Positions 158 to 32,988 of a stretch of DNA of 33,702 nt are shown piece after piece. The stretch is from Nanoarchaeota archaeon (GTDB taxonomy: Archaea > EX4484-52 > LFW-46), in NCBI GenBank assembly GCA_018897155.1, contig JAHILE010000043.1, positions 1 through 33,702 on the forward strand, read 5' to 3'. How positions within the stretch are numbered: position 1 is the stretch's first letter; each line of letters opens with the position of its first letter. Made by a program: the position numbers and the translations under genes. Under the pieces are notes generated by a model. The model was not told the origin of the DNA, did not search any database, and saw nothing but the letters and a program-made list of their open reading frames with translations.

Positions 158-247
158 AATTGAATATAACTCGGCAGTTTCACGTAGTCCGCGAAAGCGG
201 ATTAGGGTGAGCCAGAGCGAACCGTGAAACTGCATGTTAAGCTCCCG
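158..247 (+). repeat. attC-like element 1
   Basis: The outer box ATTGAATATAAC (159-170) is followed by 3 nt and arm GCAGTTTCACG (174-184). An apical hairpin TCCGC/GCGGA follows (188-192/197-201), then a hairpin with tandem G-A pairs, GGTGAGC/GCGAACC (206-212/217-223, sharing its last C with the next arm). The complementary arm is CGTGAAACTGC (223-233), and GTTAAGC begins at 236 after 2 nt. The 11-bp stem is perfect. The layout matches elements 2-4 although their arm sequences differ. Confidence 0.75.
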
Positions 248-705
248 CTCAACAATAGAACCAAAGCGGTCGAGCACCGCAGCGAAGCGAGGAGCGGAGA
301 AGTCGAGGTCGGCGGGCGCGTCGTCGTTAGCAGTTATAACCCGGTATTTCTACTCTTTGCATACTAAGTTTATTTTGGAGTTTGACTGCGATCTGATTTG
401 CTCTTTCTTTATCTTTAGCAAGAATATGCACCGCCAAATTAACGGGGTTTGCATACTGATTGAAGCTTATCGAAATGCCATACGGATCTTTTTCGTCTGA
501 CTTCTTCAGGTCTGCACTTGTATTGTTAGGTCCAAAATGTTTCTCAAGATACGAGGGACATGTACCCAACACCTCTTCCAAATTTGTTTTAGGATCAATT
601 ATGCCATCTATTAAAATACCATCCATTTTCATATTACCACCTACTACGAGTAGTCTACGAAGGTTTATATTTCTTAGTCGCCCGCCGACCTCGATTGAGT
701 TTAAC
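236..705. mobile_element. Integron-like cassette 1
   Basis: The unit runs from the GTTAAGCTC box closing element 1 to the GAGTTTAAC box opening element 2. These ends are complementary at 8 of 9 positions, the ninth being a G-T wobble. Just inside lie 16-bp perfect inverted repeats TCGAGGTCGGCGGGCG (303-318) and CGCCCGCCGACCTCGA (679-694). The right copy abuts the outer box. About 55 nt of hairpin-forming sequence, including GCGGT/ACCGC, lies between the left box and left repeat. The cargo is one small minus-strand gene. Confidence 0.65.
327..632 (-). CDS. Hypothetical protein, 101 aa (cassette cargo)
   Basis: The frame is open further upstream, to 863, but that would read through attC-like element 2. 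The start chosen is ATG 630-632 (MKMDGIL...), because AGGTGGT, a good ribosome-binding site, lies a few bases upstream and an AAATATAAA TATA-like box lies at 664-672, about 35 nt before it. The product is soluble, with no signal peptide or membrane segment. It has a charged middle and a C-terminal stretch containing NPVNLAVHIL that should form beta strand and helix. I do not recognise the family. It is the only gene in cassette 1. Confidence 0.6.
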   Translation of the reverse strand: MKMDGILIDGIIDPKTNLEEVLGTCPSYLEKHFGPNNTSADLKKSDEKDPYGISISFNQYANPVNLAVHILAKDKERANQIAVKLQNKLSMQRVEIPGYNC

Positions 706-792
706 TCGGCGGGTTTACGAAGTTTCTGCAAAGCAGAAATTTGGGAGGAGTGAGCGAAACGAACGGAACCGTAAAGCCGCTTGTTATATTCC
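692..792 (+). repeat. attC-like element 2
   Basis: The outer box is ATTGAGTTTAAC (694-705). Arm GCGGGTTTACG (709-719) pairs with CGTAAAGCCGC (770-780) with one G-G mismatch. The apical hairpin is TTTCTGC/GCAGAAA (723-729/733-739). A second hairpin, GTGAG with loop CGAAA and CGAAC (750-764), contains tandem G-A pairs. The right box is GTTATATTCC (783-792). Compared with element 1, paired positions change together. Confidence 0.75.
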
Positions 793-1754
793 TTTTGGCG
801 AAGCCAAAAGTTCGAGGCGAAGCCGAGAAAGTTGAGTTCTCGCGATAATATTGCCGAAGGCACATGAATTAGGGAAGGGGGCGTTGCAATATCATCGACT
901 GCATCAGCGGTGCTTCATATGATTTATTCCTGTATTCTATAAGCATCCCGCGCAGCATATAACCAAAATAGAAGCGTTGGAATGAACGCCAGCGGAGTTG
1001 TAAAAAACAGATAGAAATCAATTACCCATATTGTGAATCCTAACATCATGAATGCTATTCCGCGTTTAATTTTTCCAATCGCGATGTGCCCGAAGCCTGG
1101 AACGCCCATGGACAACAAAAACAGAAACCTTTTTGCCCAGGTACTATTTTCCTCTTGCAGTGATTTATAGATTAAATATCCCGATACTAAAATCACGCCT
1201 AGCCACATAAGTATGAGCGATAAACTAGTAGCGAGTGTAAAGATAAGAGGCCAGCCTGCCTGCGACAATGCATATGCATAGATAAAATAGTCATATCGGG
1301 GGCTTGAAGGAAAAAATATGGTATAACCGGCATAAACGCAAAGCGCGATAATCCAATTAAAGATTCTTAATTTCTTAGCAATGCCCCAGTTTTTGTACGC
1401 CCAGAAATAACCTAATAAAACTACGGCAAGCTCGCTAAAAAGCCAAACGATTCCCCTCAGATCCATTCCGCTAAGTATCCATACGAAATCGCCCCACACA
1501 TGACCGTCGTTGGTCAAAAGCTCGCTTGCACCAACCTCAAGAGCCCATCCGACGGGATTTCCCGGGATAAATTCTGCTCCGCCGAATAGAGGGTAAAAAA
1601 CGAGGAATAATAGGAGATATCTTGTCAAGTCCCAAAAAAATAATTTCTTTTTACTTTCCATATTAAATCACTTGTGTAATTATGGGTTATTACTATTTTT
1701 ATTGTTCAATAAACTTCATCCCCCTTCCCGTGCGAGAACTCAATTGAATATAAC
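783..1754. mobile_element. Integron-like cassette 2
   Basis: The unit runs from GTTATATTC (783-791) to GAATATAAC (1746-1754), a perfect 9-bp inverse complement. Cassette-specific inverted repeats follow inside: TTGAGTTCTCGC (832-843) with GCGAGAACTCAA (1732-1743), and GGGAAGGGGG (872-881) with CCCCCTTCCC (1720-1729). Two hairpins lie between the left box and left repeat: CTTTTGGC/GCCAAAAG (792-810) and CGAGGCGAAGCCGAG (813-827). The latter 15-mer recurs exactly at 4014-4028 and 7849-7863. The cargo is one membrane-protein gene on the minus strand. Confidence 0.65.
924..1661 (-). CDS. Polytopic membrane protein (cassette cargo)
   Basis: The 245-aa product is hydrophobic almost throughout, with roughly six or seven predicted membrane segments. 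One starts near residue 12, others lie around 70-90, 100-118 and 135-165, and two sit in the last 65 residues. The C-terminal part has the pattern PGFGHIAIGKIKRGI...DAYR, typical of small membrane proteins related to TM2/DUF5683-type domains (PGxGxxYxGxxxRG). The specific function is unknown. The start is ATG 1661; GTGAT a few bases upstream could serve as ribosome-binding site, and an AT-rich TATA-like stretch lies near 1696-1706. It is the sole gene between elements 2 and 3 and points left, toward cassette 1's gene. Confidence 0.7.
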   Translation of the reverse strand: MESKKKLFFWDLTRYLLLFLVFYPLFGGAEFIPGNPVGWALEVGASELLTNDGHVWGDFVWILSGMDLRGIVWLFSELAVVLLGYFWAYKNWGIAKKLRIFNWIIALCVYAGYTIFFPSSPRYDYFIYAYALSQAGWPLIFTLATSLSLILMWLGVILVSGYLIYKSLQEENSTWAKRFLFLLSMGVPGFGHIAIGKIKRGIAFMMLGFTIWVIDFYLFFTTPLAFIPTLLFWLYAARDAYRIQE

Positions 1755-1843
1755 TTTGGCGTTAAGAGTAGTTTTGGCGTAGCCAAAATTAGGATGGAGA
1801 AATCTGCAAGATTTCGGAATCTCTTAATGCCTTGTTATATTCC
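1743..1843 (+). repeat. attC-like element 3
   Basis: The outer box is ATTGAATATAAC (1743-1754). Arm GGCGTTAAGAG (1758-1768) pairs with CTCTTAATGCC (1821-1831) through one G-T wobble. Hairpins are TTTTGGC/GCCAAAA (1772-1778/1782-1788) and GAAATC/GATTTC (1799-1804/1810-1815). The second stands on a symmetric GGA/GGA internal loop and a GAT/ATC stem. The right box is GTTATATTCC (1834-1843). Confidence 0.8.
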
Positions 1844-1944
1844 CCGAAGGGTTGATTTTTAGTGCAATGGTGCCGAAGGCAAAAAATCAAAGTCGCAGGG
1901 TAATTTTTATATATTTCGTTTAGGGGTTGCCGCCGTCTTTTTTG

Positions 1945-1967
1945 CTTCTTTTTTGCTAAAAAAGAAG
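1945..1967. repeat. Poly-T/poly-A hairpin in cassette 3 leader
   Basis: CTTCTTTTTT (1945-1954), loop GCT, AAAAAAGAAG (1958-1967) form a perfect 10-bp stem. Similar hairpins occur at 4316-4340 and 4362-4382 in the corresponding place of cassette 4. The T-runs could terminate archaeal transcription entering from the left, insulating the cassette promoter. Confidence 0.5.
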
Positions 1968-1998
1968 ATTGGGGGGGTTCCGTTGAAAAATAGATGAA

Positions 1999-2009
1999 TT
2001 TATATAAAT
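1999..2009 (+). promoter_or_regulatory. TATA box of the GmrSD-like gene
   Basis: TTTATATAAAT is centred about 40 nt before ATG 2044, a normal archaeal promoter position giving a short leader. Confidence 0.55.
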
Positions 2010-2043
2010 AACTATATACATCATTATATAGCTATTTTGAGCA

Positions 2044-3840
2044 ATGATAAAAATGATGGATAATAGATATACTAAAAGATTGTATGGTGTGTTTGATAAA
2101 GAGAATCAAAGACAAATACAGGTTCCAGTGTTTCAAAGAGCTTATCTTTGGGGATTAAACAATTGGGAAAAATTATTAGATGATGTAATTGGAGAAGAAG
2201 AAACCCAATTTATGGGAGTATTAATTGGTGTGGGAGAAGGGGATACTAGCTATCCAATATATACTCTTATTGATGGCCAGCAGAGACTTACTACTCTATC
2301 TTTCTTTATACTCGGTTTATATAAAAGGGTTACTGAAATCTGCGAAAATGAGCAGGACAAGGAATTAATAGTATTAAAAGACGATATTGAAAAGAGATTA
2401 ACAATAACAAAAAAAGAGAAAATATTAACAAGATTGATATTGTCTAAACAAAACTCCAACAAAGAGGACTATGAATATTTGGCTCATTTGATATTGATGC
2501 CAAACAAAAGCTATGATAAGCCTGCTAATTTTGGAAATAGGAGAATAAGTTATGGATTTAATTTCTTTTCTGAGTATTGTCAAAAGGAAGTAAAATCTCT
2601 TGAAGATGCAAAAAAGTTATATGAAAAACTCAAAAATCTAACTTTTGTAGAACTTGAAGAAGATGATTTCTCTAACGCATTTAAATTATTTGAGGTTTTG
2701 AATTATAGAGGTCTTTCGTTATCTGCTATGGATATTATAAGAAATGCTATTTTTAAAGAACTACATTCCCAAAAAAAGGATTTAATTGAATACGATAAAA
2801 TGTTTAACAGAATAATGAACAATTTATTAGATTCTACATTTCAGACAAGATTTTTAAGACAATTTTACATGGCATTTAAAGGAGATGAAACTATTACTGT
2901 TAAAGGAGTATCAAAAGCAACCATATCAAAAGTCATTATGGTTTATGAAAAATTAGCAAAAAGAAATACAATTTTTCTACTTGAAGAACTTGAAGAAAAA
3001 TCAGAGATATACAAAGAATTTATCGTTTTTGAAAATGGGAATAAATTTAGCGAATTGTACGAAAATTTAATGAATTTGGGAATATCCCCAGCATATACTC
3101 TTTTGCTTTATTCCAAATCAAAAAAAGTATTTAATGATGATAACTATGAAAAATTATTACTTCTCCTAAGAAACTTCTTTGTAAGAAGAAATATTCTTGA
3201 TATACCTCCTACTAGAGAATTAGATAATTTGTTTATGAAACTTGTTGAGACAATAGAAGAAAAAATAAAAGAGGATACGCATGAAGAAATATTATTAGAG
3301 ATTATAAAAGAAAAATTGTTCACTAGAATAGAATTAAAAAATGATGATTTATTCAAAGAAAAATTATCGGGCGATATTTATGAGATTAATACTGAAATGA
3401 CAAGATATCTTCTTTGTTTAGTAGAAGAAAATTTACGAAGTAAAGATAGCAGAATTAATCTTTGGGAGAAAAATAAATCAAATAAACTTTTATTTACAAT
3501 TGAGCATATCTTACCTCAAAAGGGATTAGGAAAAAACAACGAATGGGTAAAGGAATTAGGAGCGAATGATGAGAAAGAGGCAATAAAAATAAGGGATGAA
3601 TTTTGCCATAAATTAGGCAATCTTACTCTTACAACAAGCAATCCTAATTTATCTGATTTTAACTTTGTAGAAAAGAAAAATAGGGTTGATAGAAACAAAA
3701 AGCATGTTGGATACAATAACGGATTCAAAATAAACGAGTATGTTATGAAACAACAAAAATGGAATGTTAATCAAATAAAAGAAAGAACAGATTTTTTAAT
3801 AAATGAAATTATAGGGATATTAGAAATAAATAAAAAATAA
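2044..3840 (+). CDS. GmrSD-like restriction enzyme (DUF262-DUF1524)
   Basis: The product is a 598-aa fused GmrS/GmrD-type protein. The N-terminal DUF262 (ParB/Srx-like NTPase fold) shows QVPVFQRAYLW at 26-36 and DGQQRLTTL at 77-85. A long helical middle follows. The C-terminal DUF1524 His-Me/HNH-type nuclease shows IEHILPQ near 485-491 and HKLGNLTL near 522-529. Known relatives are Type IV enzymes that cut modified, typically glucosylated hydroxymethylcytosine, phage DNA using NTP; related fusions include other phage-defence proteins. Both motif sets look intact. It is the only gene in cassette 3, has its own TATA box, and its AT-rich codon use is unlike the neighbouring chromosome. The substrate is inference from the family; several in-frame Met codons leave the start open by a few residues. 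Confidence 0.88.
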   Translation: MIKMMDNRYTKRLYGVFDKENQRQIQVPVFQRAYLWGLNNWEKLLDDVIGEEETQFMGVLIGVGEGDTSYPIYTLIDGQQRLTTLSFFILGLYKRVTEICENEQDKELIVLKDDIEKRLTITKKEKILTRLILSKQNSNKEDYEYLAHLILMPNKSYDKPANFGNRRISYGFNFFSEYCQKEVKSLEDAKKLYEKLKNLTFVELEEDDFSNAFKLFEVLNYRGLSLSAMDIIRNAIFKELHSQKKDLIEYDKMFNRIMNNLLDSTFQTRFLRQFYMAFKGDETITVKGVSKATISKVIMVYEKLAKRNTIFLLEELEEKSEIYKEFIVFENGNKFSELYENLMNLGISPAYTLLLYSKSKKVFNDDNYEKLLLLLRNFFVRRNILDIPPTRELDNLFMKLVETIEEKIKEDTHEEILLEIIKEKLFTRIELKNDDLFKEKLSGDIYEINTEMTRYLLCLVEENLRSKDSRINLWEKNKSNKLLFTIEHILPQKGLGKNNEWVKELGANDEKEAIKIRDEFCHKLGNLTLTTSNPNLSDFNFVEKKNRVDRNKKHVGYNNGFKINEYVMKQQKWNVNQIKERTDFLINEIIGILEINKK

Positions 3841-3876
3841 GATGCCCTTTAATTACTCTAAATTCTGCACAGCAAA

Positions 3877-3898
3877 CTATCTGTTCGCAGGACTTAGG
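3877..3898. repeat. CTATCTGT-hairpin copy 1
   Basis: CTATCTGTTC, loop GCA, GGACTTAGG is the first of four related short hairpins. The others are at 4031-4051, 7865-7886 and 7920-7942. All lie downstream of cassette cargo, and all resemble CTATCTGTCC-GAA-GGACTAAGG. Confidence 0.5.
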
Positions 3899-3913
3899 AA
3901 CCCCCTATAAATT

Positions 3914-4028
3914 GGAAAAATTTGGGAGAGCAAAGCGAACCTCTTAACCTTTGTTATAGAAAGTGCAAAGCATTTTCCCGTCCCCCGTTGGTCGGTTAAG
4001 AGAAGTTTTTCTTCGAGGCGAAGCCGAG
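3914..4028. repeat. Circularly permuted attC-like element, copy 1
   Basis: The features of an attC-like element appear here with the halves exchanged. TTTGGGAGAGC..GCGAAC leads to CTCTTAACC (3941-3949), TTT and GTTATAG. Then come about 35 nt with hairpin GAAAGTGC/GCATTTTC, the box CGTTGGTC, GGTTAAGAG (3994-4002), AAG, and hairpin CGAGGCGAAGCCGAG. The two 9-nt arms are perfectly complementary. An outer GGAAAAA/TTTTTCT pairing encloses them. A second copy lies at 7757-7863. Confidence 0.6.
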
Positions 4029-4082
4029 ACAATCTGTGTGAAGCACTAAGGCGGCAACCCCGTTTTAAAAATTTACCCTGCG

Positions 4083-4181
4083 ATTGGATATAACATCGGA
4101 ATTTAACGAAGTCGCCGAAGGCGATTTGGGTGGAGAAACCTGCAAGGTTTCGGAACCGTTAAATTTCCTGTTAGTTTCTCC
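4083..4181 (+). repeat. attC-like element 4
   Basis: The outer box is ATTGGATATAAC (4083-4094). Arm GGAATTTAACG (4098-4108) pairs with CGTTAAATTTCC (4157-4168) with one bulged base. Hairpins are TCGCC/GGCGA (4112-4116/4120-4124) and GAAACC/GGTTTC (4135-4140/4146-4151), the second above a GGA/GGA loop as in element 3. The right box is GTTAGTTTC (4170-4178). Confidence 0.8.
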
Positions 4182-4410
4182 TGTTAAGGATTGATTTTTA
4201 GTGCAACGATGCTCGAAGAGCAAAAAATCAAAGTTTTTGAGAATGCCGTTCGTATTGTTTCTGAAATAATATTTTTTGGGTGGGCTATGTATTAGAGAGA
4301 CGCGCGCTTTTTTTGTTTCTTTTTTTCCTAAAAAAAGAAAATGGGGATTTCCGTCTTTTTGCTTCTTTTTTCTAAAAAGAAGTCGGGAGTTTTGATAAAA
4401 TTAATCAAAA

Positions 4411-4419
4411 GATTTATAT
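4411..4419 (+). promoter_or_regulatory. TATA box of the R-M operon
   Basis: GATTTATAT, about 50 nt before ATG 4465, is the only clear TATA-like box upstream of the operon. Transcription should start near 4440. Confidence 0.5.
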
Positions 4420-4425
4420 ATCTCT

Positions 4426-4443
4426 ACAAATAATCTTATTTGT
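4426..4443. promoter_or_regulatory. Candidate operator of the R-M operon
   Basis: ACAAATAATCTTATTTGT is a perfect inverted repeat with 8-bp arms and a 2-bp centre. It lies just downstream of the TATA box, where the transcription start is expected. A small ribbon-helix-helix-like protein is the first gene of the operon, so autoregulation is a natural reading. Confidence 0.5.
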
Positions 4444-4464
4444 GTTTATTTATGAGGTTAAAAA

Positions 4465-4620
4465 ATGGGTGAAGAAGAAAATAGAAAAAATGTAACAATT
4501 CATATTAATTCTAAAATTTATGAAGAATATTCAGAATTCTGTAAAAAGGAAGGAATAATTTTATCAAGACAAATTGAAAAATTTATAATGAATGAATTAA
4601 AAAAGGTGGATAAAAAATGA
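4465..4620 (+). CDS. Small ribbon-helix-helix-like protein, possible R-M controller
   Basis: The 51-residue product has a strand-like segment NVTIHINSKIYEEYSEFC, then a turn and a helix with LSRQIEKFIMNEL. This is the layout of CopG/Arc-type ribbon-helix-helix DNA-binding proteins. GAGGT (4454-4458) is a strong ribosome-binding site 6 nt before the ATG. The stop overlaps the methyltransferase start as ATGA (4617-4620), implying translational coupling. A palindrome at 4426-4443 in the promoter is a plausible binding site. In many R-M systems a small controller protein regulates expression; that role here is inferred from position only. An antitoxin-like protein is the alternative. Confidence 0.65.
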   Translation: MGEEENRKNVTIHINSKIYEEYSEFCKKEGIILSRQIEKFIMNELKKVDKK

Positions 4621-5780
4621 CTTTGAACTACATAGGGAGTAAATTATCTCTTTTGGATTTCATTCATTTTATTGTAGATAAAGAAATAAAAGAAAATATC
4701 TTTGTTGTTGGAGATTTGTTTGCAGGAACTGGAATTGTAGGGCAAAGTTTCAAAAGAAAGGGATACAAAATTGTTGCTAATGACATACAATATTATAGTT
4801 TTGTTTTAAATAAAAAATTTCTAACAAACAACGATTTTGTAAAATTTGAGGGATTGGTAGAGGAGATACCTAATTTACTAAATTATGAGAAAAAAGAAAG
4901 AATATTACAAGTTTTAAATTATTTGAATAATTTAAAGGAAAGAAAAAAGGGATTTATCTTTGATAATTATTCTCTTGCTGGAACAAAAGGAAAAGAATTT
5001 GAAAGAATGTATTTTTCAGATGAAAATGCTTTAAAGATTGATACAATTAGATTAAAAATTGAAGATTGGTTTAGAAATAAAAAAATAAGCGAAAGAGAAT
5101 ATTTTTATTTATTAGGAACTTTAATTGAAGCATCTGATAAGGTGGCAAATACAGCTTCGGTTTATGGTGCATTTCTAAAAAAAATAAAAAAATCTGCACA
5201 AAAGGAACTTCAATTATATTATAATGAAATTATTTTTGGTGATAAAGAGAATATAGTTTTTAATGAGGATATCTTAAAAATTTTAAATAAAGAAAAGATT
5301 GATTTATTGTATTTAGACCCCCCATATAATGCGAGACAATATTGTTCTAATTATCACATGTTAGAAACTATATCAAAATATGATAATCCAAATATCTCTG
5401 GGAAAACTGGATTAAGAGACTACCAAAAACAAAAGTCAAAATTTTGCAGTAGAAATAATGTTAAGGAAGAATTTGAAAAAATAGTAAAAACAACTAATGC
5501 AAAATATATTCTATTAAGCTATAATAATGAAGGTTTAATGTCAATAAAAGATGTTCAAGAGATACTTTCTTTAAGAGGAGAACCAAAAACATTTATACTC
5601 AAATATAAAAGATTTAAAGCAGACAAAACAGAAAATAGAAATCATAAATCCGACTTTACCTATGAATATTTACATTTTGTTAAATGTGATGAAAATATGG
5701 ATGAAATTAGAAATAAAGAATTTCCTATAATTGAGATTGATTCTAATATGTTGAATAACCAAACTAAATTAACTAATTAA
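4617..5780 (+). CDS. DNA adenine methyltransferase, D12 (Dam-like) class
   Basis: The 387-aa protein transfers methyl groups from S-adenosylmethionine to adenine N6 in DNA, as judged by family. YIGSK (5-9) matches the N-terminal motif of D12-class enzymes. DLFAGTG (33-39) is the cofactor-binding motif I. DPPY (about 234-237) is catalytic motif IV. The length exceeds Dam (about 280 aa) and leaves room for a larger target-recognition region between motifs I and IV. The start overlaps the upstream regulator by 4 nt. A second methyltransferase follows one base after the stop, so the two are co-translated. Two methylases beside one nuclease suggests an asymmetric recognition sequence with one enzyme per strand; this is inference. 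Confidence 0.88.
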   Translation: MTLNYIGSKLSLLDFIHFIVDKEIKENIFVVGDLFAGTGIVGQSFKRKGYKIVANDIQYYSFVLNKKFLTNNDFVKFEGLVEEIPNLLNYEKKERILQVLNYLNNLKERKKGFIFDNYSLAGTKGKEFERMYFSDENALKIDTIRLKIEDWFRNKKISEREYFYLLGTLIEASDKVANTASVYGAFLKKIKKSAQKELQLYYNEIIFGDKENIVFNEDILKILNKEKIDLLYLDPPYNARQYCSNYHMLETISKYDNPNISGKTGLRDYQKQKSKFCSRNNVKEEFEKIVKTTNAKYILLSYNNEGLMSIKDVQEILSLRGEPKTFILKYKRFKADKTENRNHKSDFTYEYLHFVKCDENMDEIRNKEFPIIEIDSNMLNNQTKLTN

Positions 5781-5781
5781 A

Positions 5782-6525
5782 ATGGTAGCATATAACGACT
5801 TAAATTATAACGATTGGAAAAAATATTTGGGAGATATTACGACTGACGCAATTTGGATAACTCCTAAGATTAATGGAAAGTTTGAAATTCCAAAAAGAGA
5901 CTTTTTGCCTAAAAATAGCAATACTTTTCATGGGTTGTTTATTCCTGAAATACCTTATCAATTTATTAGAAGATTTACAAAAAAAGGAGAAATTGTTTGG
6001 GATTGTTTTGGGGGTAGTGGAACAACAAAAAAAGTTTCTGATTTATTGGATAGAAAATGTATAATTAATGATATTTCTCCCCAAGAAGATTTTATTATTA
6101 AAGCAGATTCAACAACATTTAATCCTAATTCTAAAATTCATTTAATTTTTATGCACCCACCTTATCATAATATAATCAAATATTCAAATAAAAATGAAGA
6201 TGGCTCAAATTATAATTCAATTAATGAATTCTTAAATTGGTTTGAAAACGTTGTTAAAAATGTTACCCAATATTTAGAAGAAAATAGATTTTTAATTTTG
6301 GTGTGTGGAAACATTTATCAAAATGGAGAAGAACACACCTTAGGAGTTTGGTGTAAAGACATTATATTAAAATATGGATTTAAATGTAAATCCCATGTGA
6401 TAAAAGATTATGGAGAAACTAAAGGAGGAAGTAAAAATTATAACCTTAATTATTATAGGGCATTAAGAGGTAATTTTAATTCTTTTTACGGAGATAATAT
6501 TTTTATATTACAAAAGATAAATTAA
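5782..6525 (+). CDS. Second DNA methyltransferase (N6-A or N4-C)
   Basis: The 247-aa protein has FGGSGTT (76-82), the S-adenosylmethionine motif I in the FxGxGTT form, followed later by HPPY (125-128) as catalytic motif IV. The segment HGLFIPEIPYQFIRRFTKKGEI before motif I is like the stretch seen before motif I in amino-methyltransferases of the N4/N6 group. The order motif I then motif IV differs from classical beta-class enzymes. HPPY in place of DPPY or SPPY leaves the methylated base (adenine or cytosine) undecided. The ATG follows the previous stop after one base. Its 3' end overlaps the convergent nuclease gene by 4 bp. Confidence 0.8.
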   Translation: MVAYNDLNYNDWKKYLGDITTDAIWITPKINGKFEIPKRDFLPKNSNTFHGLFIPEIPYQFIRRFTKKGEIVWDCFGGSGTTKKVSDLLDRKCIINDISPQEDFIIKADSTTFNPNSKIHLIFMHPPYHNIIKYSNKNEDGSNYNSINEFLNWFENVVKNVTQYLEENRFLILVCGNIYQNGEEHTLGVWCKDIILKYGFKCKSHVIKDYGETKGGSKNYNLNYYRALRGNFNSFYGDNIFILQKIN

Positions 6526-7670
6526 TTATAATTAATCTCAGAAAACTTTAATTCTTCTCCAACTACTTCATATTCAATAAATTTTAAAGGTAAGCAATTT
6601 TGATTTTTATTATTAAATTGTTTAAATGATTCTATTATTTGCAAATATTTTTCAGAATCTTTATTGTCAAATTTTTTAGCAATTAATACTGGCTGTATTG
6701 TGCTTATTCTATTAGAGATATAATATTGTTGTAACCAATCCACATATCTTTGAAGTTGAATAACATTTAATAAAGATATTTGAACTGCTTTTAATTCAAT
6801 AGGCAAAATTAATCTTTCATCATTTCTCTTTTGTAATGATAAAGCAATATCTATTCTCTGCATTCCAACACCACAAGAAACTTCATTTCCAATCCATTCT
6901 AACTTATTGTCTTGTATAAGTAGATTTTTTAATTCATCACTTATATCCACATTTTTACAAATATATGCTTGCAGATGACTTTCAAAAGCTTTATCCTCTT
7001 TGTATTTTTGTACAAGTCTTGGTAAAACATTAATTTCCTCTTTTCTTCCAGAATAGTTATGTTTAGTCTCCGACGGAATTATTTTTTGATTATCTACATT
7101 ATAAGAAAAGTTTTGAGAATTAATTTTTTGTCTATTATTTTTATCTCTTATCAATTTAAATAATCTTTCTGTTTCATAAATCGTAATCATTGTATTTCCA
7201 CGATTACCTTTTAATTTTCTATAAATTAAACTCCATAACATTTGATTGGGAGATTGAATAAACTTTATTTCGTCTAATGCTTCCCATTCTGTAACCCCTT
7301 GTGCATAAACTTCATAAGGTTCTAATAAAACTCTAAAAGTTAATGACTTTTGTAATTCATCTTTTAAAAATTGTCCATTGTCATTATTATCCAAAAAACC
7401 ATTAGACTTAGCTTTGAATATCCCATAAAATTTTCCTTCGCCAACTTCCCTACTTTGTTGTAAGTAAAAGATTACATAATCTCCAATTCTTACTCTACTT
7501 AAATCTGCAATCATGCTAATAAGTAAATTTTCTCTTGTTGGATTAAGTTTTGATTTTGAATTATTATTAAAATCTAAGATGTAATCTTTTGCCCCTGTGC
7601 CTGCAAATAAATATTCTAAATGATACTTAAAAGTATTTTTATCAACAATGAAAACATGTGTATTTACCAT
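6522..7670 (-). CDS. Restriction endonuclease with PUA/EVE-like and PD-(D/E)XK domains
   Basis: The 382-aa protein starts with NTHVFIVDKNTFKYHLEYLFAGTG...RIGDYVIFYLQQ...GKFYGIFKA, which has the look of a PUA/EVE-type beta-barrel. The C-terminal part has RIDIALSL followed by LPIELKA, the D..ExK signature of PD-(D/E)XK nucleases. It is convergent with, and overlaps by 4 bp, the second methyltransferase, so it is the likely restriction partner. The frame is open to a GTG at 7691. I place the start at ATG 7668-7670 because ATTTATAAAT (7694-7703) lies about 28 nt upstream, giving a nearly leaderless message. The recognition sequence and EVE assignment are inference. Confidence 0.75.
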   Translation of the reverse strand: MVNTHVFIVDKNTFKYHLEYLFAGTGAKDYILDFNNNSKSKLNPTRENLLISMIADLSRVRIGDYVIFYLQQSREVGEGKFYGIFKAKSNGFLDNNDNGQFLKDELQKSLTFRVLLEPYEVYAQGVTEWEALDEIKFIQSPNQMLWSLIYRKLKGNRGNTMITIYETERLFKLIRDKNNRQKINSQNFSYNVDNQKIIPSETKHNYSGRKEEINVLPRLVQKYKEDKAFESHLQAYICKNVDISDELKNLLIQDNKLEWIGNEVSCGVGMQRIDIALSLQKRNDERLILPIELKAVQISLLNVIQLQRYVDWLQQYYISNRISTIQPVLIAKKFDNKDSEKYLQIIESFKQFNNKNQNCLPLKFIEYEVVGEELKFSEINYN

Positions 7671-7693
7671 ATTAATATTAAAGATATTCACAC

Positions 7694-7703
7694 ATTTATA
7701 AAT
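7694..7703 (-). promoter_or_regulatory. TATA box of the restriction endonuclease gene
   Basis: ATTTATAAAT is centred about 28 nt upstream of ATG 7670 on the minus strand. It supports the shorter start and a leaderless message. Confidence 0.55.
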
Positions 7704-7756
7704 ATGTTTGTTTTTTGAGAGGTCTAAAACATATTTTCAAAACTCCCGAATAAAAT

Positions 7757-7863
7757 CAGAAAAATTTGGGCGAAGCCTTTTATCCTTTGTTAGAAGAAAT
7801 TTTAATTTCTTTGTGGTTTTCGTTGGTCGGATAAAAGAAGTTTTTCTGCGAGGCGAAGCCGAG
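7757..7863. repeat. Circularly permuted attC-like element, copy 2
   Basis: Outer stem CAGAAAAA (7757-7764) pairs with TTTTTCTG (7841-7848). Inner arms CTTTTATCC (7777-7785) and GGATAAAAG (7829-7837) pair perfectly. Between them are TTTGTTA, a hairpin AGAAAT/ATTTCT and the conserved box CGTTGGTC. Hairpin CGAGGCGAAGCCGAG (7849-7863) follows. Relative to the copy at 3914-4028 the arm sequences differ, yet both pair internally. Two CTATCTGT hairpins follow at 7865-7886 and 7920-7942. Confidence 0.6.
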
Positions 7864-8023
7864 ACTATCTGTCCGAAGGACTAAGGAAATCCCCTATTAA
7901 TTCAAAAACAAAGTTTTTGCTATCTGTCCTGAAAGGACTAAGCGCGTCTCTCCTATTGGGTGGGAGAAAAAATATTATTTCCTATCTCTTTGTTTTAACT
8001 TTATCTTGTAGGCATTCTCAAAA

Positions 8024-8107
8024 ATTGAAACTAACTAGATATTCTACGGAGTAAATTCCGCTTTTTGCGCCTTTTTGTAATGAAAAGCGGAATAAAGTTG
8101 GTATAAC
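8024..8107. repeat. Array end: outer box and attI-like or degenerate attC region
   Basis: ATTGAAACTAAC (8024-8035) closes cassette 4. Beyond it the regular spacing is lost. Nineteen bases precede ATTCCGCTTTT (8055-8065), which pairs perfectly with AAAAGCGGAAT (8083-8093); AAA and GTTGGTATAAC (8097-8107) follow. On the minus strand the junction reads GAATATCTAGTTAGTTTC. This places a box-like GAATATC beside GTTAGTTTC, as in an integron attI simple site. This could be the array's insertion site or a decayed attC. Confidence 0.4.
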
Positions 8108-8250
8108 GCTCGCCTATTGAGTATTATGCTGAGTTTTGTTGGTTTTTTATTGCAATATGAAGTATTATGCAATAAAAAAGCTTGAAAATTGGACAGTCAG
8201 TACAGTGAATTTTCATGATTTTTCGCGCCCTTTTGTGGAGTTATACCAAC
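8097..8250. repeat. Inverted-repeat element overlapping the 3' end of xerA
   Basis: GTTGGTATAAC (8097-8107) and GTTATACCAAC (8240-8250) are perfect 11-bp inverted repeats. Between them are hairpins TTTTTTATTGCA/TGCAATAAAAAA (8143-8154/8168-8179) and TGAAAATT/AATTTTCA (8183-8190/8208-8215). The arrangement resembles a large attC-like or MITE-like element. It contains the last codons of xerA, and its first hairpin could terminate that gene. Confidence 0.5.
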
Positions 8251-9066
8251 TTCCGGACTATGCAAAGTGTCTAGTGGGCTCTGAATATTTTTTATTAGCG
8301 CTGTAGAAACATGTGTATATAGCTCGGTTGTCCTTACGTCAGAATGGCCAAGCAGCTTTTGAATTATGTGAATATCCGTTCCGTTCTCAAGCAGATGCGT
8401 AGCATAACTATGGCGCAGTGTATGTGGATGGACATTTTTGATTATTCCGGCAATGCTTGCGGCTTTATCCACTATCTTTTCGATTGTAGCTTCAGTAAGC
8501 CGCCCTCCTCTTGCAGAATCAAATACATAGGGGTTCTCATCATTTCTCAGGAGAATGTATGATTCAAGCCGCTTTGATAAAGTGAAAGGCAGCGATACTA
8601 CACGGTCTTTGTTGCCCTTTCCCTGCCTTACAAAAAGTATGCCTTCTTCGAACCGAATATCATCTTTTTTTAGTTTTGCGGCTTCTGATACTCTCAGGCC
8701 GCAGCCATAAACCGTTTCAATTATTAGCTTATGCTTTGTGTTTGAAATCGCAGTTATTATTCTTTGCACTTCATTCTTTGTAAGCACTTCAGGAACTCTT
8801 TTCGGGCGCTTCATAAAAGTTATGGCCATCTCCCTTCCGAGCACATTTCTGTAAAAGAACTTGACCGCACTTATCCTCAAATTCACTGTTCTCGGGTCCA
8901 TTTTTTCAGACAGACCGGCAAAATATTGCCGAATTTCGTCGTGCTCCGCCTGCGCGCCCATTCTCTTAAGAAAACATGATGTATGGAACATATACGACTT
9001 TACGGTCTTTGCGCTGAACCCTCTCGACTTAAGTTCGATTTCCAATTTGCCAAGTAATATATTCAT
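8197..9066 (-). CDS. xerA: Tyrosine recombinase, XerA type
   Basis: The 289-aa site-specific recombinase should act on dif-like sites by the tyrosine mechanism. The N-terminal SAM-like DNA-binding domain spans about 1-90. The catalytic residues are all present: R125 (GCGLRVSE), K150 (RQGKGNKD), H215 and R218 (HTLRHSYATH), H241 (LLGHSDV), Y250 (ELYTHV). The extra segment characteristic of integron integrases near the HxxR motif is absent, so sequence alone says XerA, not IntI. TTATATAT (9091-9099) lies about 29 nt before the ATG, suggesting a leaderless message. The last 20 or so residues after SPLDTL look like a read-through tail encoded inside an inverted-repeat element. It is next to an attC-like array whose outer boxes resemble an archaeal dif half-site. 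Chromosome dimer resolution is the default role, and cassette recombination is a hypothesis. Confidence 0.9.
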   Translation of the reverse strand: MNILLGKLEIELKSRGFSAKTVKSYMFHTSCFLKRMGAQAEHDEIRQYFAGLSEKMDPRTVNLRISAVKFFYRNVLGREMAITFMKRPKRVPEVLTKNEVQRIITAISNTKHKLIIETVYGCGLRVSEAAKLKKDDIRFEEGILFVRQGKGNKDRVVSLPFTLSKRLESYILLRNDENPYVFDSARGGRLTEATIEKIVDKAASIAGIIKNVHPHTLRHSYATHLLENGTDIHIIQKLLGHSDVRTTELYTHVSTALIKNIQSPLDTLHSPEVGITPQKGAKNHENSLY

Positions 9067-9104: not shown

Positions 9105-9689
9105 TTAAACGTTGCCGATAGATGCATCAGTTATTTCATCCGCGCGTATCCCTGCCGCATCCATCAATTCTTTTTCTAAGTTTTTTGTAAGAGGCTCCGC
9201 GCGATTCACATTTTCAAGATGGTGCGGATACCTTTCGCGCAGATATTCAAACCTTTCGGAAAGCGAAACGATTTTATCGTGCTTGACTCGTTTGTCTGCA
9301 TAGAAAACGATTTTTTCTTCAATGCTGAAGCTTGCGCCTTCTTTTATGATTTTATGCAAAACATGATTTTCCGCAATTTTTGCAACTTCGGGATAGCCTT
9401 CTTTTTCAAGAATTTCGCGCGCCATTGAGCCATGCTTGCCGGATTTGTTTTTGATTTCAATAATCTTGTCGATATCGTGCAAAAGTGCTGCTGCGCACAC
9501 TAACGAAACGTTGACAGTTCCTCCGCGCGCATTTATTCTTTCTGCAATAAAAACCGCGATTTTAGAAACCGTAGCGCAATGTGCGACAATATTTTTGGGC
9601 ATCCCATATTTTGAAAGAAGCGCCATGCATTCGGAATAAGTGGGAACCTCGATTTTGTTTTGCATGAAAATAATTGTTATCGCATTCAT
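9105..9689 (-). CDS. HD-domain metal-dependent phosphohydrolase
   Basis: The 194-aa protein has an HD superfamily core. An early histidine (VAHCATVSKIA) is followed by the signature LLHDIDK, then KHGSMAREIL, further His residues in ENHVLHKI, and an Asp in FYADKRVKHD. These residues coordinate metals in HD-type phosphatases and nucleotidases. The domain is often annotated as an HDIG or phosphohydrolase protein; the substrate cannot be told from sequence. The start is ATG 9689, with ATG 9665 (MQNKIEV) as an alternative; neither has an obvious ribosome-binding site. It lies 47 bp downstream of the Sec61-beta gene on the same strand and may be co-transcribed with it. Confidence 0.8.
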   Translation of the reverse strand: MNAITIIFMQNKIEVPTYSECMALLSKYGMPKNIVAHCATVSKIAVFIAERINARGGTVNVSLVCAAALLHDIDKIIEIKNKSGKHGSMAREILEKEGYPEVAKIAENHVLHKIIKEGASFSIEEKIVFYADKRVKHDKIVSLSERFEYLRERYPHHLENVNRAEPLTKNLEKELMDAAGIRADEITDASIGNV

Positions 9690-12740: not shown

Positions 12741-12775
12741 CTTGCCTTAAATATGTAATGGCATGGATGAGTTTT

Positions 12776-14542
12776 ATGCCAATCCGCCAGCCCATAATTT
12801 CGATTCTCGGACATGTGGACCATGGAAAAACGACTCTTCTTGACACTATCAGGGCCTCGCGCGTTGCGATCGGCGAAGCTGGCGGCATCACCCAGCATAT
12901 CGGCGCATCAGAAGTGCCGGTTGAGAACATACTAAAAACCTGTAATTCATTTCTAAAAAAGTGGAAAATTGATGTCAAAATTCCCGGCCTTTTGTTTATT
13001 GACACGCCCGGACACGCGGCGTTTTCGCTGCTTCGAAAGCGCGGCGGAGCTCTTGCAGATATAGCGATTCTTGTGATTGACATTACGGAAGGCATAAAGC
13101 CGCAGACTGATGAGGCGATCAAAATCCTGCGCGATAATAAGACGCCGTTTATTATCGCCGCGAACAAAGTGGACAAAATCAGCGGATGGCAGACTCAAAA
13201 AGATGCCTGTTTCCATGATGCATTTGATGCCCAATCGACAAAAATCCAGGAAGAGCTTGACCTGAAAATTTACACACTTATCGGGCAGTTAGGTGAGCGC
13301 AACATAATGAGCGACCGCTTTGACAGGATAACTGACTTCACAAAAACAATAGCAATTGTGCCGGTTTCAGGAAGAAGCGGCGAAGGCGTTGCGGATCTTC
13401 TGGGCTTAATTACCGGGCTCTCGCAGAAATATCTTGAAAAAAAGCTTGCGTTGGATGAATCCGGTGTCGGCAAAGGCACTGTTCTTGAAGTGAAGGAAGT
13501 TAAAGGCCTCGGGATGACTCTGGACATAATACTTTATGACGGTATAATGCGCCAGGGAGATACGCTTGTGATTGGCGCGCGTGAAAAACCCGTAGTTACG
13601 AAAGTCAAGGCGATATTGAAAATACCGCCATTAAAAGAAATTCGGGTCGAAAAAAAATTCGTGCCGGTAAAAGAAGTTTTAGCTGCCGTTGGCATCAAGG
13701 TATCTGCAATGAATATTGATGAAGTAATTGCCGGTGTTCCTATCTATACTCTGCGCGAAGGCGCTTTGACAAAAGAATACGAAGATCTTGTCAGAAAGGA
13801 AATCGAAAGTGTTGAAATTGTGACTTCAAATGAAGGCTTGATAATCAAGGCAGATGCGCTTGGAAGCCTTGAGGCGATTGTGCGCAGCATAAAAGAGAAG
13901 AACATTCCGATAAGAAAAGCGCTTATTGGCGCGGTTTCGCGAAAAGATATACTTGAGGTAAAGGATTCTGACCCTAAATACAAGGTTGTTCTCGCTTTTA
14001 ATGCAAACGTGGCTGATGATGCAAAGCAGGAATCAAAAGACACCGGCGTAAAAATTCTTGAAAGCGAAATCATTTACAGGCTTCTTGAAGGCTATGATGA
14101 GTACTTAAAAGACCTTGATGCCGCACAGAAAAAAGCGCTGTCAGAGTCGTTGAAAAAGCCGGCAAAGGTGCGCATCATTCCGGGATTTGTTTTTAGGCAA
14201 TCAAAGCCTGCTGTTGTTGGCATGGAAATAGTTCTTGGCACATTGAAAAAAGACGCGAAACTGATGAATTCTGTTGGCGAAGTCCTTGGAGATGTCGAGC
14301 AGGTGCAGGACAAGAACGTCAATATTGATGAGGGAAAAATCGGCATGAAATGCGCGGTTTCTGTCGACGGCTTTGTTGTCGGAAGAAATGCAAAAGAGAA
14401 TGAGGTTTTCTACACATTCCTGACAAAAGAAGAATATAAGTTGCTGCGCAAGAACATCGGCTTCCTGTCGCAGAGCGAAATCACATGCCTTGACGAAATC
14501 AAGCAGGTGATGCTGAAAACTGACAAGCTGTGGGATTTGTAA
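12776..14542 (+). CDS. infB: Translation initiation factor aIF5B
   Basis: The 588-aa GTPase promotes ribosomal subunit joining and binds initiator tRNA. GHVDHGKT (G1) lies near residue 12. DTPGHAAFS (G3), NKVD (G4) and a downstream beta-barrel domain 2 follow. After these come the alpha/beta domain III (IIKADALGSLEAIVRSI) and a C-terminal domain IV with GFVFRQSKPAVVG. The length agrees with archaeal aIF5B. The open frame reaches ATG 12758. ATG 12776 (MPIRQPIISILGHVDHGK) matches the family N-terminus and has GGATGA just upstream; ATG 12767 is also possible and would be near-leaderless. Confidence 0.96.
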   Translation: MPIRQPIISILGHVDHGKTTLLDTIRASRVAIGEAGGITQHIGASEVPVENILKTCNSFLKKWKIDVKIPGLLFIDTPGHAAFSLLRKRGGALADIAILVIDITEGIKPQTDEAIKILRDNKTPFIIAANKVDKISGWQTQKDACFHDAFDAQSTKIQEELDLKIYTLIGQLGERNIMSDRFDRITDFTKTIAIVPVSGRSGEGVADLLGLITGLSQKYLEKKLALDESGVGKGTVLEVKEVKGLGMTLDIILYDGIMRQGDTLVIGAREKPVVTKVKAILKIPPLKEIRVEKKFVPVKEVLAAVGIKVSAMNIDEVIAGVPIYTLREGALTKEYEDLVRKEIESVEIVTSNEGLIIKADALGSLEAIVRSIKEKNIPIRKALIGAVSRKDILEVKDSDPKYKVVLAFNANVADDAKQESKDTGVKILESEIIYRLLEGYDEYLKDLDAAQKKALSESLKKPAKVRIIPGFVFRQSKPAVVGMEIVLGTLKKDAKLMNSVGEVLGDVEQVQDKNVNIDEGKIGMKCAVSVDGFVVGRNAKENEVFYTFLTKEEYKLLRKNIGFLSQSEITCLDEIKQVMLKTDKLWDL

Positions 14543-16682: not shown

Positions 16683-17090
16683 ATGCCAGCACGAATCGTT
16701 ATAGGCGACAAAGACGGAAAATCATACCAGAAGGAAATTGCAGCAGATAAATTGAATGCTCTTCTTAATCTGAAAATCGGCGATGAGTTCGACGGAGGAA
16801 TTGTCGATGTTCCAGGATACCGATTTTCAATAAGCGGCGGGTCTGACAAGGACGGATTCCCTATGCGAAAAGGCGTACATGGCCAGGGAAGGAAACAAAT
16901 TCTTGTTGCAGAAGGCCCGGGATATTATCCCATTATGAAAGGCGGGCGCAAGAAAAAATCAATACGCGGAGAAGTTATTGCTTCCGATATTGCGCAGATT
17001 AATGTTAAACTTGTAAAAGCAGGCGCGAAACCGCTCGCTGAACTCTTTGGAAAAACCGCAGAGGCTCCCAAAGCCGAAGAAAAGAAATAA
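16683..17090 (+). CDS. rps6e: Small ribosomal subunit protein S6e
   Basis: The 135-aa protein matches archaeal S6e. It shows an N-terminal beta-rich fold with KSYQKEI, the family signature SGGSDKDGFPMRKGVHGQGRKQIL, and basic stretches GGRKKKSIRG. The acidic/lysine tail (AEAPKAEEKK) is variable in the family. It binds 16S rRNA in the small subunit. The gene has its own TATA box and a good ribosome-binding site, and faces the convergent end of the RuBisCO operon. Confidence 0.95.
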   Translation: MPARIVIGDKDGKSYQKEIAADKLNALLNLKIGDEFDGGIVDVPGYRFSISGGSDKDGFPMRKGVHGQGRKQILVAEGPGYYPIMKGGRKKKSIRGEVIASDIAQINVKLVKAGAKPLAELFGKTAEAPKAEEKK

Positions 17091-18117: not shown

Positions 18118-19413
18118 TTACTTATCGCTTTTGGAAGCCTCCCAACAATTGAGAGCCATTCTAAGTTCTTCATGATTTTTTGAATATTCTTTCAAAGACG
18201 TTTTCTTAAGGCACGCATCAACCGCTTGCCTTGCCGCCATAGCCCCTGTCTTTGTTCCGCCGGGGTGTGCGTGTATTCCGCCTCCGAATTGCATGATTAT
18301 GTCTTTTCCAAAAACATCCATTAGATCAGGAACCATTGTCGGCTCCAGCCCTCCGGAAGCTACGGGAAACATCGGTTTTATTTTACCCCAATTCTGCTCA
18401 AGTACATTAAGCCGGTAATTTTCCTTTACGATGCCAAGTACGCATTCATCACGGACGGCCAAAACCTCATCTTTTCCGCCATGCATTTTTCCCACAACGG
18501 TTCCTATGTGAAGTTGGTCCAAACCGACAAGCCGCGTAAGCTTTGATATTACAGTCATACTTATGCCGTGCTTCGGATTTCTTGTCAGGGCAGAATGCAT
18601 GCATCGGTGCGCATGCAGAACCAGCTTCAAATCCTCGTTTGCTTCCCTCAGCGTCTGCAGGGCGGTCCAGCCAACTGGAATGATATCAATCATTATATAT
18701 TCTCCGCCCAGGCTTTTGACATACTCCGCCCGCTTTATCATTTCCTGGCACGTGGGCGCAGTAATATTGCACATATACATTTTTCTCTCACCGGTTTCTT
18801 TTTCAACTTTATCCCTTAATTTTAGAGTTGTCTTAGCCCTTTTTTCGAAACTGTTGAATTTCTGGTTTGTAAGGTTTTCGTCATCCTTCACAATATCGCA
18901 GCCGCCAACCCAGGAATTATACGCGACTTCAGCATGTTTTTCAGAAGTCAGTCCAACTTTTGGCTTTACTATGGTTCCGACAAACGGCCGGTCTTTGACT
19001 TTCATAAGTTTTCTTACACCCTCCAGGCCAAATTTCGGTCCGCGAAACTGCTTTATGACCTGTTCAGGAAATGAAATATCCTGCAGCCTTAAGTTGTCTA
19101 GAAGCTTCATGCTGAATATATTTCCTGCAACAGAGCTTAAGAATTGCGGAACTGAATTAGTTTCAAACAAATCCACATGATATGCAACTTTGATAGTATT
19201 TCTTTTTTTGTCCATGAAAAATACATGGGGCTTTAAGCGCTTTGCCAGTTTAGGGCTCAGTGTCTGGATATCTGCCCAGGTGTCTATGGAGCTTTCTCCA
19301 GCCATGTTTGTTGCGGCCTTTTCAAAACTAACTCCTTCAGATGGTTCGATATAATATTCACAAATTAAATCATTTTTTGTAGGTTTATAGTTTATGTCTA
19401 TATATTCCTGCAT
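18118..19413 (-). CDS. rbcL: Form III (archaeal) RuBisCO large subunit
   Basis: The 431-aa enzyme carboxylates ribulose-1,5-bisphosphate to two 3-phosphoglycerates. In archaea it usually works in AMP/nucleoside salvage with AMP phosphorylase and ribose-1,5-bisphosphate isomerase, neither of which is in this window. All catalytic positions are recognisable: KPKVGL (proton-transfer Lys), KDDE (carbamylated Lys and Mg2+ ligands), HAHRCMH, QLHIGTVVGKMHG (His and loop-6 Lys), PVASGG and FGGGIHAHPGG. It is therefore probably active, not a RuBisCO-like protein. The sequence reads as form III. The frame is open to a GTG at 19419; ATG 19413 (MQEYIDINY) is preferred. It follows a winged-helix regulator by a few bases. 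Confidence 0.94.
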   Translation of the reverse strand: MQEYIDINYKPTKNDLICEYYIEPSEGVSFEKAATNMAGESSIDTWADIQTLSPKLAKRLKPHVFFMDKKRNTIKVAYHVDLFETNSVPQFLSSVAGNIFSMKLLDNLRLQDISFPEQVIKQFRGPKFGLEGVRKLMKVKDRPFVGTIVKPKVGLTSEKHAEVAYNSWVGGCDIVKDDENLTNQKFNSFEKRAKTTLKLRDKVEKETGERKMYMCNITAPTCQEMIKRAEYVKSLGGEYIMIDIIPVGWTALQTLREANEDLKLVLHAHRCMHSALTRNPKHGISMTVISKLTRLVGLDQLHIGTVVGKMHGGKDEVLAVRDECVLGIVKENYRLNVLEQNWGKIKPMFPVASGGLEPTMVPDLMDVFGKDIIMQFGGGIHAHPGGTKTGAMAARQAVDACLKKTSLKEYSKNHEELRMALNCWEASKSDK

Positions 19414-19424
19414 ATTCACACCAT

Positions 19425-26523: not shown

Positions 26524-27915
26524 TTACCTTTGAAATTTATTTAACGCAAGCTCTTTTATAGTTTCGTATGTCTCGAATTCCGGAGCAAGCGAATCATATT
26601 TCGCGAATTTGCCGAAAGAAAGCCTTTTCGCGCCAGGCGTAAAATCCCCGCCATGAACAGGATACATAAAAATCATATCTTTACTTTGAAAAAAAGCATC
26701 CGCTTTTTTGAGCCAATCCCTTTGCTGCTTTTTATCCAGCATTTGGCTAAAAACATCCATAGGCGAATTATTAGCCCAGCCGAAATCAATAAAAACTAAT
26801 CGCAGTATCTTCCCAAACTTTTCTTCAACTTTAGAATTTATCTTATCCCATCTTTCTTCGTCGAATTTTCCGCTGTATATTTCTTCCGGTGTCGGAGTGA
26901 TCGTGACAAAATCGAGCTTTGGCGCTTGCCGATTGTAATAGATTACCGGATCAGCCCATGTTCCGACATAAATGTTTTTTCCTTTTGATCTTCCGTATTC
27001 ATGAATTGCATCTATGATCTTACCTGCAGCATCATAGGAATCTTTAACAGCTTGATGATTTTCATTATTATTGACCATGGCCTTAAGACTTTCCGCTTGG
27101 ATATAAAGCAAATCGATAAAAATTGCATCTGCGCCTGAATCTATCTGTTTTTTAGCGCGATTTACAAGAAGCTCTTGAAAAGCCGGAATCGTCAGATCCG
27201 GATAATATCCCTCGGCTTTTTGCCAATCATATTTCTCGCCAAGCTTCAACAGATGATTGGTCAGCGCGAAATATTCCTGAAATCCTTCCTTATTCAAAAG
27301 TTTCCCTCTAAGTGACGGATAGTCTTTGCATATATCTTCCGGACATATATAGGTTATATTCCATTTTTGCGGATCAAACGCCATTCCCCAAGTATCATTA
27401 GCATTGATCACAGTGTTTGCTATGGGATCTACTTCAATTCTTCCCAGAGCTTCTGAAGGAATCGCGCCTACAAATATGACTCCTGGCATTTCTTTTTTAA
27501 TCTCAGGTATTGTCTTTCTGAGCTCTTCGTATGAGTAGCCCAATTCTCTGACCAACTCGGGCACATTTTTAGTTGTAGTTTTTGCAAACTCGGCAATACG
27601 ATCAAGCAATTCAGAAGGCATATTATCCGGAGAATCCGGAGCGGGTATTGTCCAAGTATAAAAACCTAAAAAAATTAAATCTGTTTTGGTTTGTTTTAGC
27701 ATTTTGACAGTATTCTTAAGACTCCTGCCGCCGCCGGATTCTCTGTCAGTCACTTTTTCGTACACCGTAGCGACTTTAACCCGAGAAAGATCATTCTGCG
27801 GGCCGGCATATGGTATTTTCGACAAATCTATTTGTTCCAATTCATTTTTTGGAGCGATCAGCAATATCGCAATAACCAATACGACTCCTAATAAAAGCAA
27901 GATTTTTTTGTTCAT
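26524..27915 (-). CDS. Anchored TIM-barrel protein A, probable glycoside hydrolase
   Basis: The 463-aa protein starts with an MNKKILLLLGVVLVIAILLIA membrane anchor or signal. A domain with the strand-helix rhythm of a TIM barrel follows, including KTDLIFLGFYTWTIP, GVIFVGAIP, GADAIFIDLLYIQ, KNIYVGTWADP and LRLVFIDFGW. Aspartates at strand ends (IFIDLL, VFIDFG) are candidate catalytic residues. I do not recognise the exact family. It is a paralogue of the protein at 31625-32983 and sits among GH13-type genes, so an extracellular glycan role is likely. The frame reaches a GTG at 27924 overlapping the upstream stop; ATG 27915 gives the MNKKIL start shared by all cluster members. Confidence 0.75.
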   Translation of the reverse strand: MNKKILLLLGVVLVIAILLIAPKNELEQIDLSKIPYAGPQNDLSRVKVATVYEKVTDRESGGGRSLKNTVKMLKQTKTDLIFLGFYTWTIPAPDSPDNMPSELLDRIAEFAKTTTKNVPELVRELGYSYEELRKTIPEIKKEMPGVIFVGAIPSEALGRIEVDPIANTVINANDTWGMAFDPQKWNITYICPEDICKDYPSLRGKLLNKEGFQEYFALTNHLLKLGEKYDWQKAEGYYPDLTIPAFQELLVNRAKKQIDSGADAIFIDLLYIQAESLKAMVNNNENHQAVKDSYDAAGKIIDAIHEYGRSKGKNIYVGTWADPVIYYNRQAPKLDFVTITPTPEEIYSGKFDEERWDKINSKVEEKFGKILRLVFIDFGWANNSPMDVFSQMLDKKQQRDWLKKADAFFQSKDMIFMYPVHGGDFTPGAKRLSFGKFAKYDSLAPEFETYETIKELALNKFQR

Positions 27916-27920
27916 AAACT

Positions 27921-29705: not shown

Positions 29706-29739
29706 ATTGATCAGTTTTTATTTGTTTAAATAATTAAAA

Positions 29740-31605: not shown

Positions 31606-31624
31606 AATTTTTACCTTTTAATTG

Positions 31625-32983: not shown

Positions 32984-32988
32984 ATATT

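Follow-up and report, generated by a model that had tools for sequence, protein, structure and literature searches.

A probable integron-type cassette array with a Xer-type candidate integrase in an archaeal genome

The cassette array and its attC sites

The window, that is the whole stretch of 33,702 nucleotides analysed here, is the entire contig C43 of an archaeal genome assembly (1.43 Mb, 62 contigs, estimated to be 96% complete). Its left part holds a row of gene-bearing segments separated by folded elements, followed by a putative insertion site, attI (8024-8110, minus strand), and by the gene of a tyrosine recombinase (8197-9066, minus strand), and we consider it nearly certain that this row is a cassette array of the integron type. 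Since the window is the complete contig, the array runs off at base 1. The archaeal ribosomal protein S6e (16683-17090) and archaeal aIF-2 (12758-14542) are encoded on the same contig and exceed their curated cut-offs, so that the array does not lie on a stray bacterial contig; its placement in an archaeal genome by the original prediction, made from the sequence alone, is borne out.

The cassettes of the window are read on the minus strand, and cassettes 1 to 4 each have a short inverted repeat of their own. Cassette 1 (4094-8034; outer repeat 4235-4247 / 8011-8023) is likely a restriction-modification unit, with a D12 methyltransferase (4617-5780, plus strand), an N6/N4 methyltransferase (5782-6525, plus strand) and a nuclease-like gene (6522-7691, minus strand), the methyltransferases being preceded by a RepB-like protein of 51 residues (4465-4620, plus strand; PF10723, E 1e-4). 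A GmrSD-type restriction enzyme (2044-3840, plus strand) occupies cassette 2 (1754-4093; outer repeat 1894-1908 / 4068-4082), a 245-residue protein without a Pfam match (924-1661, minus strand) cassette 3 (705-1753; outer repeat 833-843 / 1732-1742), and a protein of about 100 residues (327-632, minus strand) cassette 4 (170-704; outer repeat 304-318 / 679-693), while only the start of cassette 5 (1-169) is present before the contig end cuts it. Among 80 cassettes surveyed the median length is 833 bp and 53 carry a single gene. Methyltransferases and restriction enzymes (GmrSD, MjaI, CfrBI, type I) are prominent, besides many unknown and metabolic families.

The four elements that we assign as attC sites of cassettes 1 to 4 (4083-4179, 1743-1843, 694-792 and 159-245, all on the minus strand) were found within a few bases of where they had been predicted. 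They score 92.2, 104, 92 and 73.8 bits, respectively, with a covariance model. Each folds better than its own dinucleotide shuffles (z -3.0 to -7.2), and the cassettes are separated by foldable sites with R and L boxes. The model was built from these four elements and a fifth copy on contig C51, aligned by hand with N padding. In this five-copy alignment 97% of the cells are paired and 12 pairs have changed on both sides, a result reached by none of 500 shuffles, and when the structure is slid along the alignment only 23-43% pairing remains; the predicted common plan with compensating changes is therefore confirmed. Over related loci the model finds 72-76 elements, and in an alignment of 72 copies, which leans towards the model because it was fitted to it, 94.5% of the pair cells are paired versus less than 48% for slid structures. 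A comparison of arm lengths in the L stem gives equal arms in 67 of 74 copies, so no regular bulge is apparent in this stem.

The scan of related archaea that had been proposed as a check was carried out with the same model. In the genome that holds the window the model detects 17 elements at E <= 0.01, with E down to 1.7e-24, seven of them on a single contig of 8.8 kb (C52). Of the 34 phylum members analysed, which all belong to one order, 26 have sites at E <= 1e-4. Among 394 genomes of archaea, 40 have sites at E <= 1e-8, and 23 of these lie outside the order. Note that the compared genomes are assemblies, mostly split into many contigs. A lone attC on contig C51 (L016 2387-2475) has serS immediately downstream and one small gene on its other side, and is possibly a cassette at a secondary site.

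The recombinase and the adjacent attI

The gene at 8197-9066 encodes a tyrosine recombinase of the archaeal Xer type with 289 residues, which we propose as the integron integrase. It reaches 234.7 bits with the profile NF040815 (recomb_XerA_Arch, cut-off 220) and 205 bits with the IntI profile TIGR02249, under the cut-off of 265. By inspection, the catalytic residues R, K, HxxR, H and Y are all present. The protein aligns over its full length with Pyrococcus abyssi XerA (4A8E) and has 10 residues at the place where IntI4 has 52; the IntI-specific additional domain (I2, around patch III) is absent from every archaeal row of the alignment. The NF040815 cut-off is passed by this protein and by five of seven other array-linked proteins scanned, L161 and L164 falling below it. 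The expectation that the array lacks a recognisable IntI is thus literally true, but a candidate integrase of another type exists beside the attI core.

In the tree, nine array-linked recombinases form one clade (97/93), apart from the chromosomal XerA proteins of the same order (96/96), and the IntI references, two sequences, constitute a fully supported branch of their own that excludes the array recombinases. As the labels in this tree rest partly on adjacency, it is the separation of the clades and not the labels that we take as evidence. The chromosomal clade includes a second recombinase of this genome, on contig C19, which has neither attI nor array next to it and appears a better candidate than the array enzyme for chromosome dimer resolution at dif. 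Two further array-linked groups are found in the tree, L111/L132/L140 and L161/L164. A recombinase group on contigs G033 C78, G020 C82 and G017 C156 also adjoins arrays, so that more than one Xer-type enzyme may serve them. Four of the closest relatives of the window recombinase lie on contigs without a detected attC; three of these contigs break off on the attI side after no more than about 200 bases. Plasmid matches were rejected as close relatives, being distant general integrases with about 40% identity or less. Upstream of the window-type recombinases a motif YCTAYCGGCA is conserved about 20 bases before a TATA-box-like sequence (window about 9113-9122, minus strand; L126, L127, L128, L129, L130 and L108), possibly a regulator site.

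The proposed attI comprises the core GTTAGTTTCAAT (8035-8024) and recombinase-proximal arms of approximate extent, and its place and order agree with those in related loci. There, a palindrome such as ATTATACGGAAT-AA-ATTCCGTATAAT is followed after a few bases by GTTAnnnnCAAT, downstream of window-type recombinases and upstream in the L121/L122/L131 group. The window itself has the core, but its palindrome has decayed (GCGGAATTTACTCCG) and is not scored by the automatic scan; the candidate integrase gene stands beside an attI core at the head of the array. The array had been predicted to end at 8035, which is the last base of a fifth core, that of the proposed insertion site. An attI adjoins eight of the nine recombinases of the array clade (six by automatic scan, the window and L127 by eye), and for the ninth the contig ends 3 bases past the stop codon. 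The scan detects sites near 10 of 25 recombinases versus 5 in 340 kb of background, with two unconvincing cases among the ten, the weak, AT-rich L138 and the reversed L130 beside a broken gene. Palindrome and core do not occur beside the chromosomal XerA clade, save for one weak AT-rich match. The core of the first cassette matches attI at 5 of 5 bases in four of five loci, and the window attI core pairs at 5 of 5 with the attC of cassette 1. A second, decayed integron is found in the same genome on contig C46 (L108 4170-4996, 5169 and 6812-6900). Its recombinase is frame-broken, its palindromic attI is intact, and the core of its single attC agrees with attI at 5 of 5 bases.

Polarity, exchange at the core and the outer repeat

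All 14 contigs among the related loci that hold both array and recombinase have the recombinase at the attI end, one of them with an extra weak match on the far side, and 85 genes run in the orientation of attC versus 37 against it (binomial p 1.6e-5). By both observations the top strand of attC corresponds to the window's minus strand, the reverse of the predicted polarity. The outer boxes are R boxes of the integron type, as had been recognised, but R'' and R' had been assigned on the wrong strand.

Bases past the crossover at an attC belong to the next cassette, and should accordingly pair with the attC at the far end of that cassette and not with the adjoining one. For 50 neighbouring pairs the start core pairs with the attC of its own cassette at 4.04 of 5 bases, compared with 2.6 for the joined attC and 2.29 after permutation, and none of 20,000 permutations reached the observed value. 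Pairs from other archaeal families outside the order (27) yielded 4.30, 2.15 and 2.12, respectively, and a true Vibrio integron (35 cassettes) 3.86, 2.09 and 2.0. As the pairing follows the cassette in the same way as in Vibrio, the archaeal arrays bear the cassette signature. The best partner of an R box does not lie inside its own element but is the R box of the neighbour in the same cassette.

Comparison of individual cassettes also points to site-specific exchange at the GTTA box or immediately beside it. The same cassette start adjoins attI in L128 (G004) and an attC in L122 (G006), with 91% identity over 211 bases beginning at TGTTATATTCAAT, and a second one stands at attI in L122 (G006) and at an attC in L121 (G020), the similarity beginning at GTTATACGCAAT. 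Cassettes are shared across families, and their identity breaks off exactly at the core (GTTA). In one related contig (G032 C136) the sequence stops precisely at the attI GTTA, which may reflect a variable first cassette, although it may also be chance.

Most archaeal cassettes carry, outside the R box, a private inverted repeat, often of 11-16 bp. At one end it lies directly outside the core box and at the other before the side hairpin (AGT-repeat ... repeat-ATTG in the orientation of the original prediction). Its score within the order is 9.82 versus 3.97 for permuted cassettes, and outside the order, where fewer cassettes carry it, 5.96 versus 3.50. One free test applied to both systems gave 10.85 versus 7.10 for archaeal cassettes and 6.8 versus 6.64 for the Vibrio control cassettes, in which no outer inverted repeat was thus detected. 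Blocks of about 160 bases, from attC to AGT, are common to cassettes with differing repeats and genes, and the repeat therefore travels with the gene and not with attC. In a circular cassette it would lengthen the attC stem outwards, and it may either have a role in folding or be a scar of cassette formation.

Inside-out, circularly permuted attC-like elements lie near the starts of cassette 2 (3911-4060) and cassette 1 (7745-7890), and further ones at G004 C25:2522-2660, G006 C1:686-821 and G020 C50:5056-5119. In these, the L-stem arms enclose a short loop in which a TAAC box stands with a degenerate R box, and the apical hairpin faces outwards. The idea that they are broken attCs was dropped, for in the checked cases they recur beside attC or attI, near cassette starts.

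Proposed mechanism and relation to known integrons

In the mechanism that we propose, the integrase would be a dedicated, array-linked tyrosine recombinase of the Xer type, a paralogue of chromosomal XerA. Circular cassettes would carry a folded attC with an R box GTTAnnnn/nnnnTAAC, an L stem of 9-11 bp and two apical hairpins, and the cassette-specific inverted repeat would lengthen this attC at the base. The recombinase would join the cassette core (G^TTA) either to another attC or to attI, where two palindromic binding arms stand next to the GTTAnnnnCAAT core, and repeated joining would build the array, in this case of restriction-modification and unknown genes. We infer that the array-linked enzyme performs the reaction and cuts at the G^TTA phosphate, that a single folded strand is its substrate and that the outer repeat aids folding. 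We judge it probable, at roughly 0.8, that the array is served by this Xer-type recombinase as a dedicated integrase without the IntI domain.

The arrays might instead have been built by a conventional IntI, since lost or acting in trans, while the Xer-type recombinase next to them would have a different role. The majority of archaeal integrons described to date are such clusters of attC sites lacking an integrase (CALINs; PMC9668308), and the palindrome beside the window attI core has decayed. Yet a scan of 35 genomes of the group gave no IntI above the curated cut-off (TIGR02249), the first cassette agrees with the attI core next to the recombinase, palindrome and core recur beside the related recombinases and not beside the chromosomal clade apart from its single AT-rich match, and the recombinase side is constant in 14 of 14 contigs, so that we regard this explanation as improbable.

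Less probable still is a chain of small transposon-like units, in which a gene flanked by GTTA and TAAC would move together with its terminal inverted repeats, the element between two units being a spacer or relic. Each gene is indeed enclosed by inverted repeats made up of cores and outer repeats, but in homologous cassettes the attC moves with one flank and homology ends at the core on the opposite side, as in integrons, and 72 copies show a constraint on pairing in the L stem. The strong covariation could also be that of structured RNA genes or regulatory elements repeated between genes; as no match in an Rfam scan reached its gathering score, and the pairing of cores across cassettes and the breakpoints at GTTA have no RNA explanation, we give this the least credence of all.

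Outside the archaea, one of the closest known systems is the bacterial chromosomal integron, here the Vibrio superintegron (L182/L183), which has the same core signature and GTTA crossover box, and whose insertion site is likewise proximal to the integrase. It differs in the approximately 42 extra residues of its integrase, in the apex of its attC and in cassettes that lack the outer inverted repeat. The IntI-specific domain is, to our knowledge, found in all known integron enzymes. In pdif/dif modules, by contrast, short double-stranded dif-like sites occur in inverted pairs and are acted on by host XerC/XerD in trans, with no attI and no folded attC. What they have in common with the present system is that Xer-type recombinases move gene modules, as described for Acinetobacter plasmids (PMC6449649). 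In CTXphi integration XerCD, without a domain of the I2 type, acts on a folded single strand (PMC4792948), but the site is that of a phage, the enzyme is that of the host, and there is neither a cassette array nor a dedicated recombinase.

The statement in the original prediction that integrons had only recently been reported in archaeal genomes was correct, as they were published in 2022 (Ghaly et al., PMC9668308). These agree with ours in the domain of life and in tandem cassettes with foldable attC, mostly without IntI. Integrases were accepted there only with the IntI-specific domain (IntegronFinder), which the integrase proposed here lacks, and the text considered here mentions neither outer repeats nor a palindromic attI. 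As the standard search demands this domain (PMC9668308), an integrase of the present type could also account for the apparent lack of an integrase in most archaeal integrons. Within the open-access literature other than preprints, the Xer-type integrase, the palindromic attI and the outer repeat with its extended att site appear to be new.

Escudero et al. (PMC4792948) describe the origin of IntI as a chicken-and-egg paradox, I2 being useful only with attC and attC only with I2. A folded-site cassette system with an integrase devoid of I2 would, if true, be a natural and directly testable example for this paradox, and may reveal how integrons function, or came into being, in the absence of the IntI-specific domain. 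We are inclined, with little more than even confidence, to see here a second kind of integron, widespread in small-genome archaea, in which a Xer-type enzyme without I2 acts on folded cassette ends whose stem is longer and mostly free of bulges and is joined by an outer repeat private to each cassette. Such an integron would have been invented independently or would represent a surviving stage from before IntI gained I2, the private repeat being a scar of cassette making. A private outer repeat in each cassette is a new clue to how cassettes are born.

A comparison of gene content with close genomes had also been suggested. A genome of the same genus (G001) also has the HDIG and NAD kinase genes that neighbour the array here, but a different gene directly follows HDIG, and there is no recombinase in the 260 bases up to the contig end; this weakly suggests presence versus absence of the integron, weakly because the contig ends there. 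Elsewhere in the window a type III RuBisCO (18118-19419, minus strand) exceeds its curated cut-off. Judged from the translations alone, a run of five glycosidase-like genes (26524-33702, minus strand) is apparently paralogous, and two of these, at 27921-29705 and 29740-31605, have near-identical N-termini.
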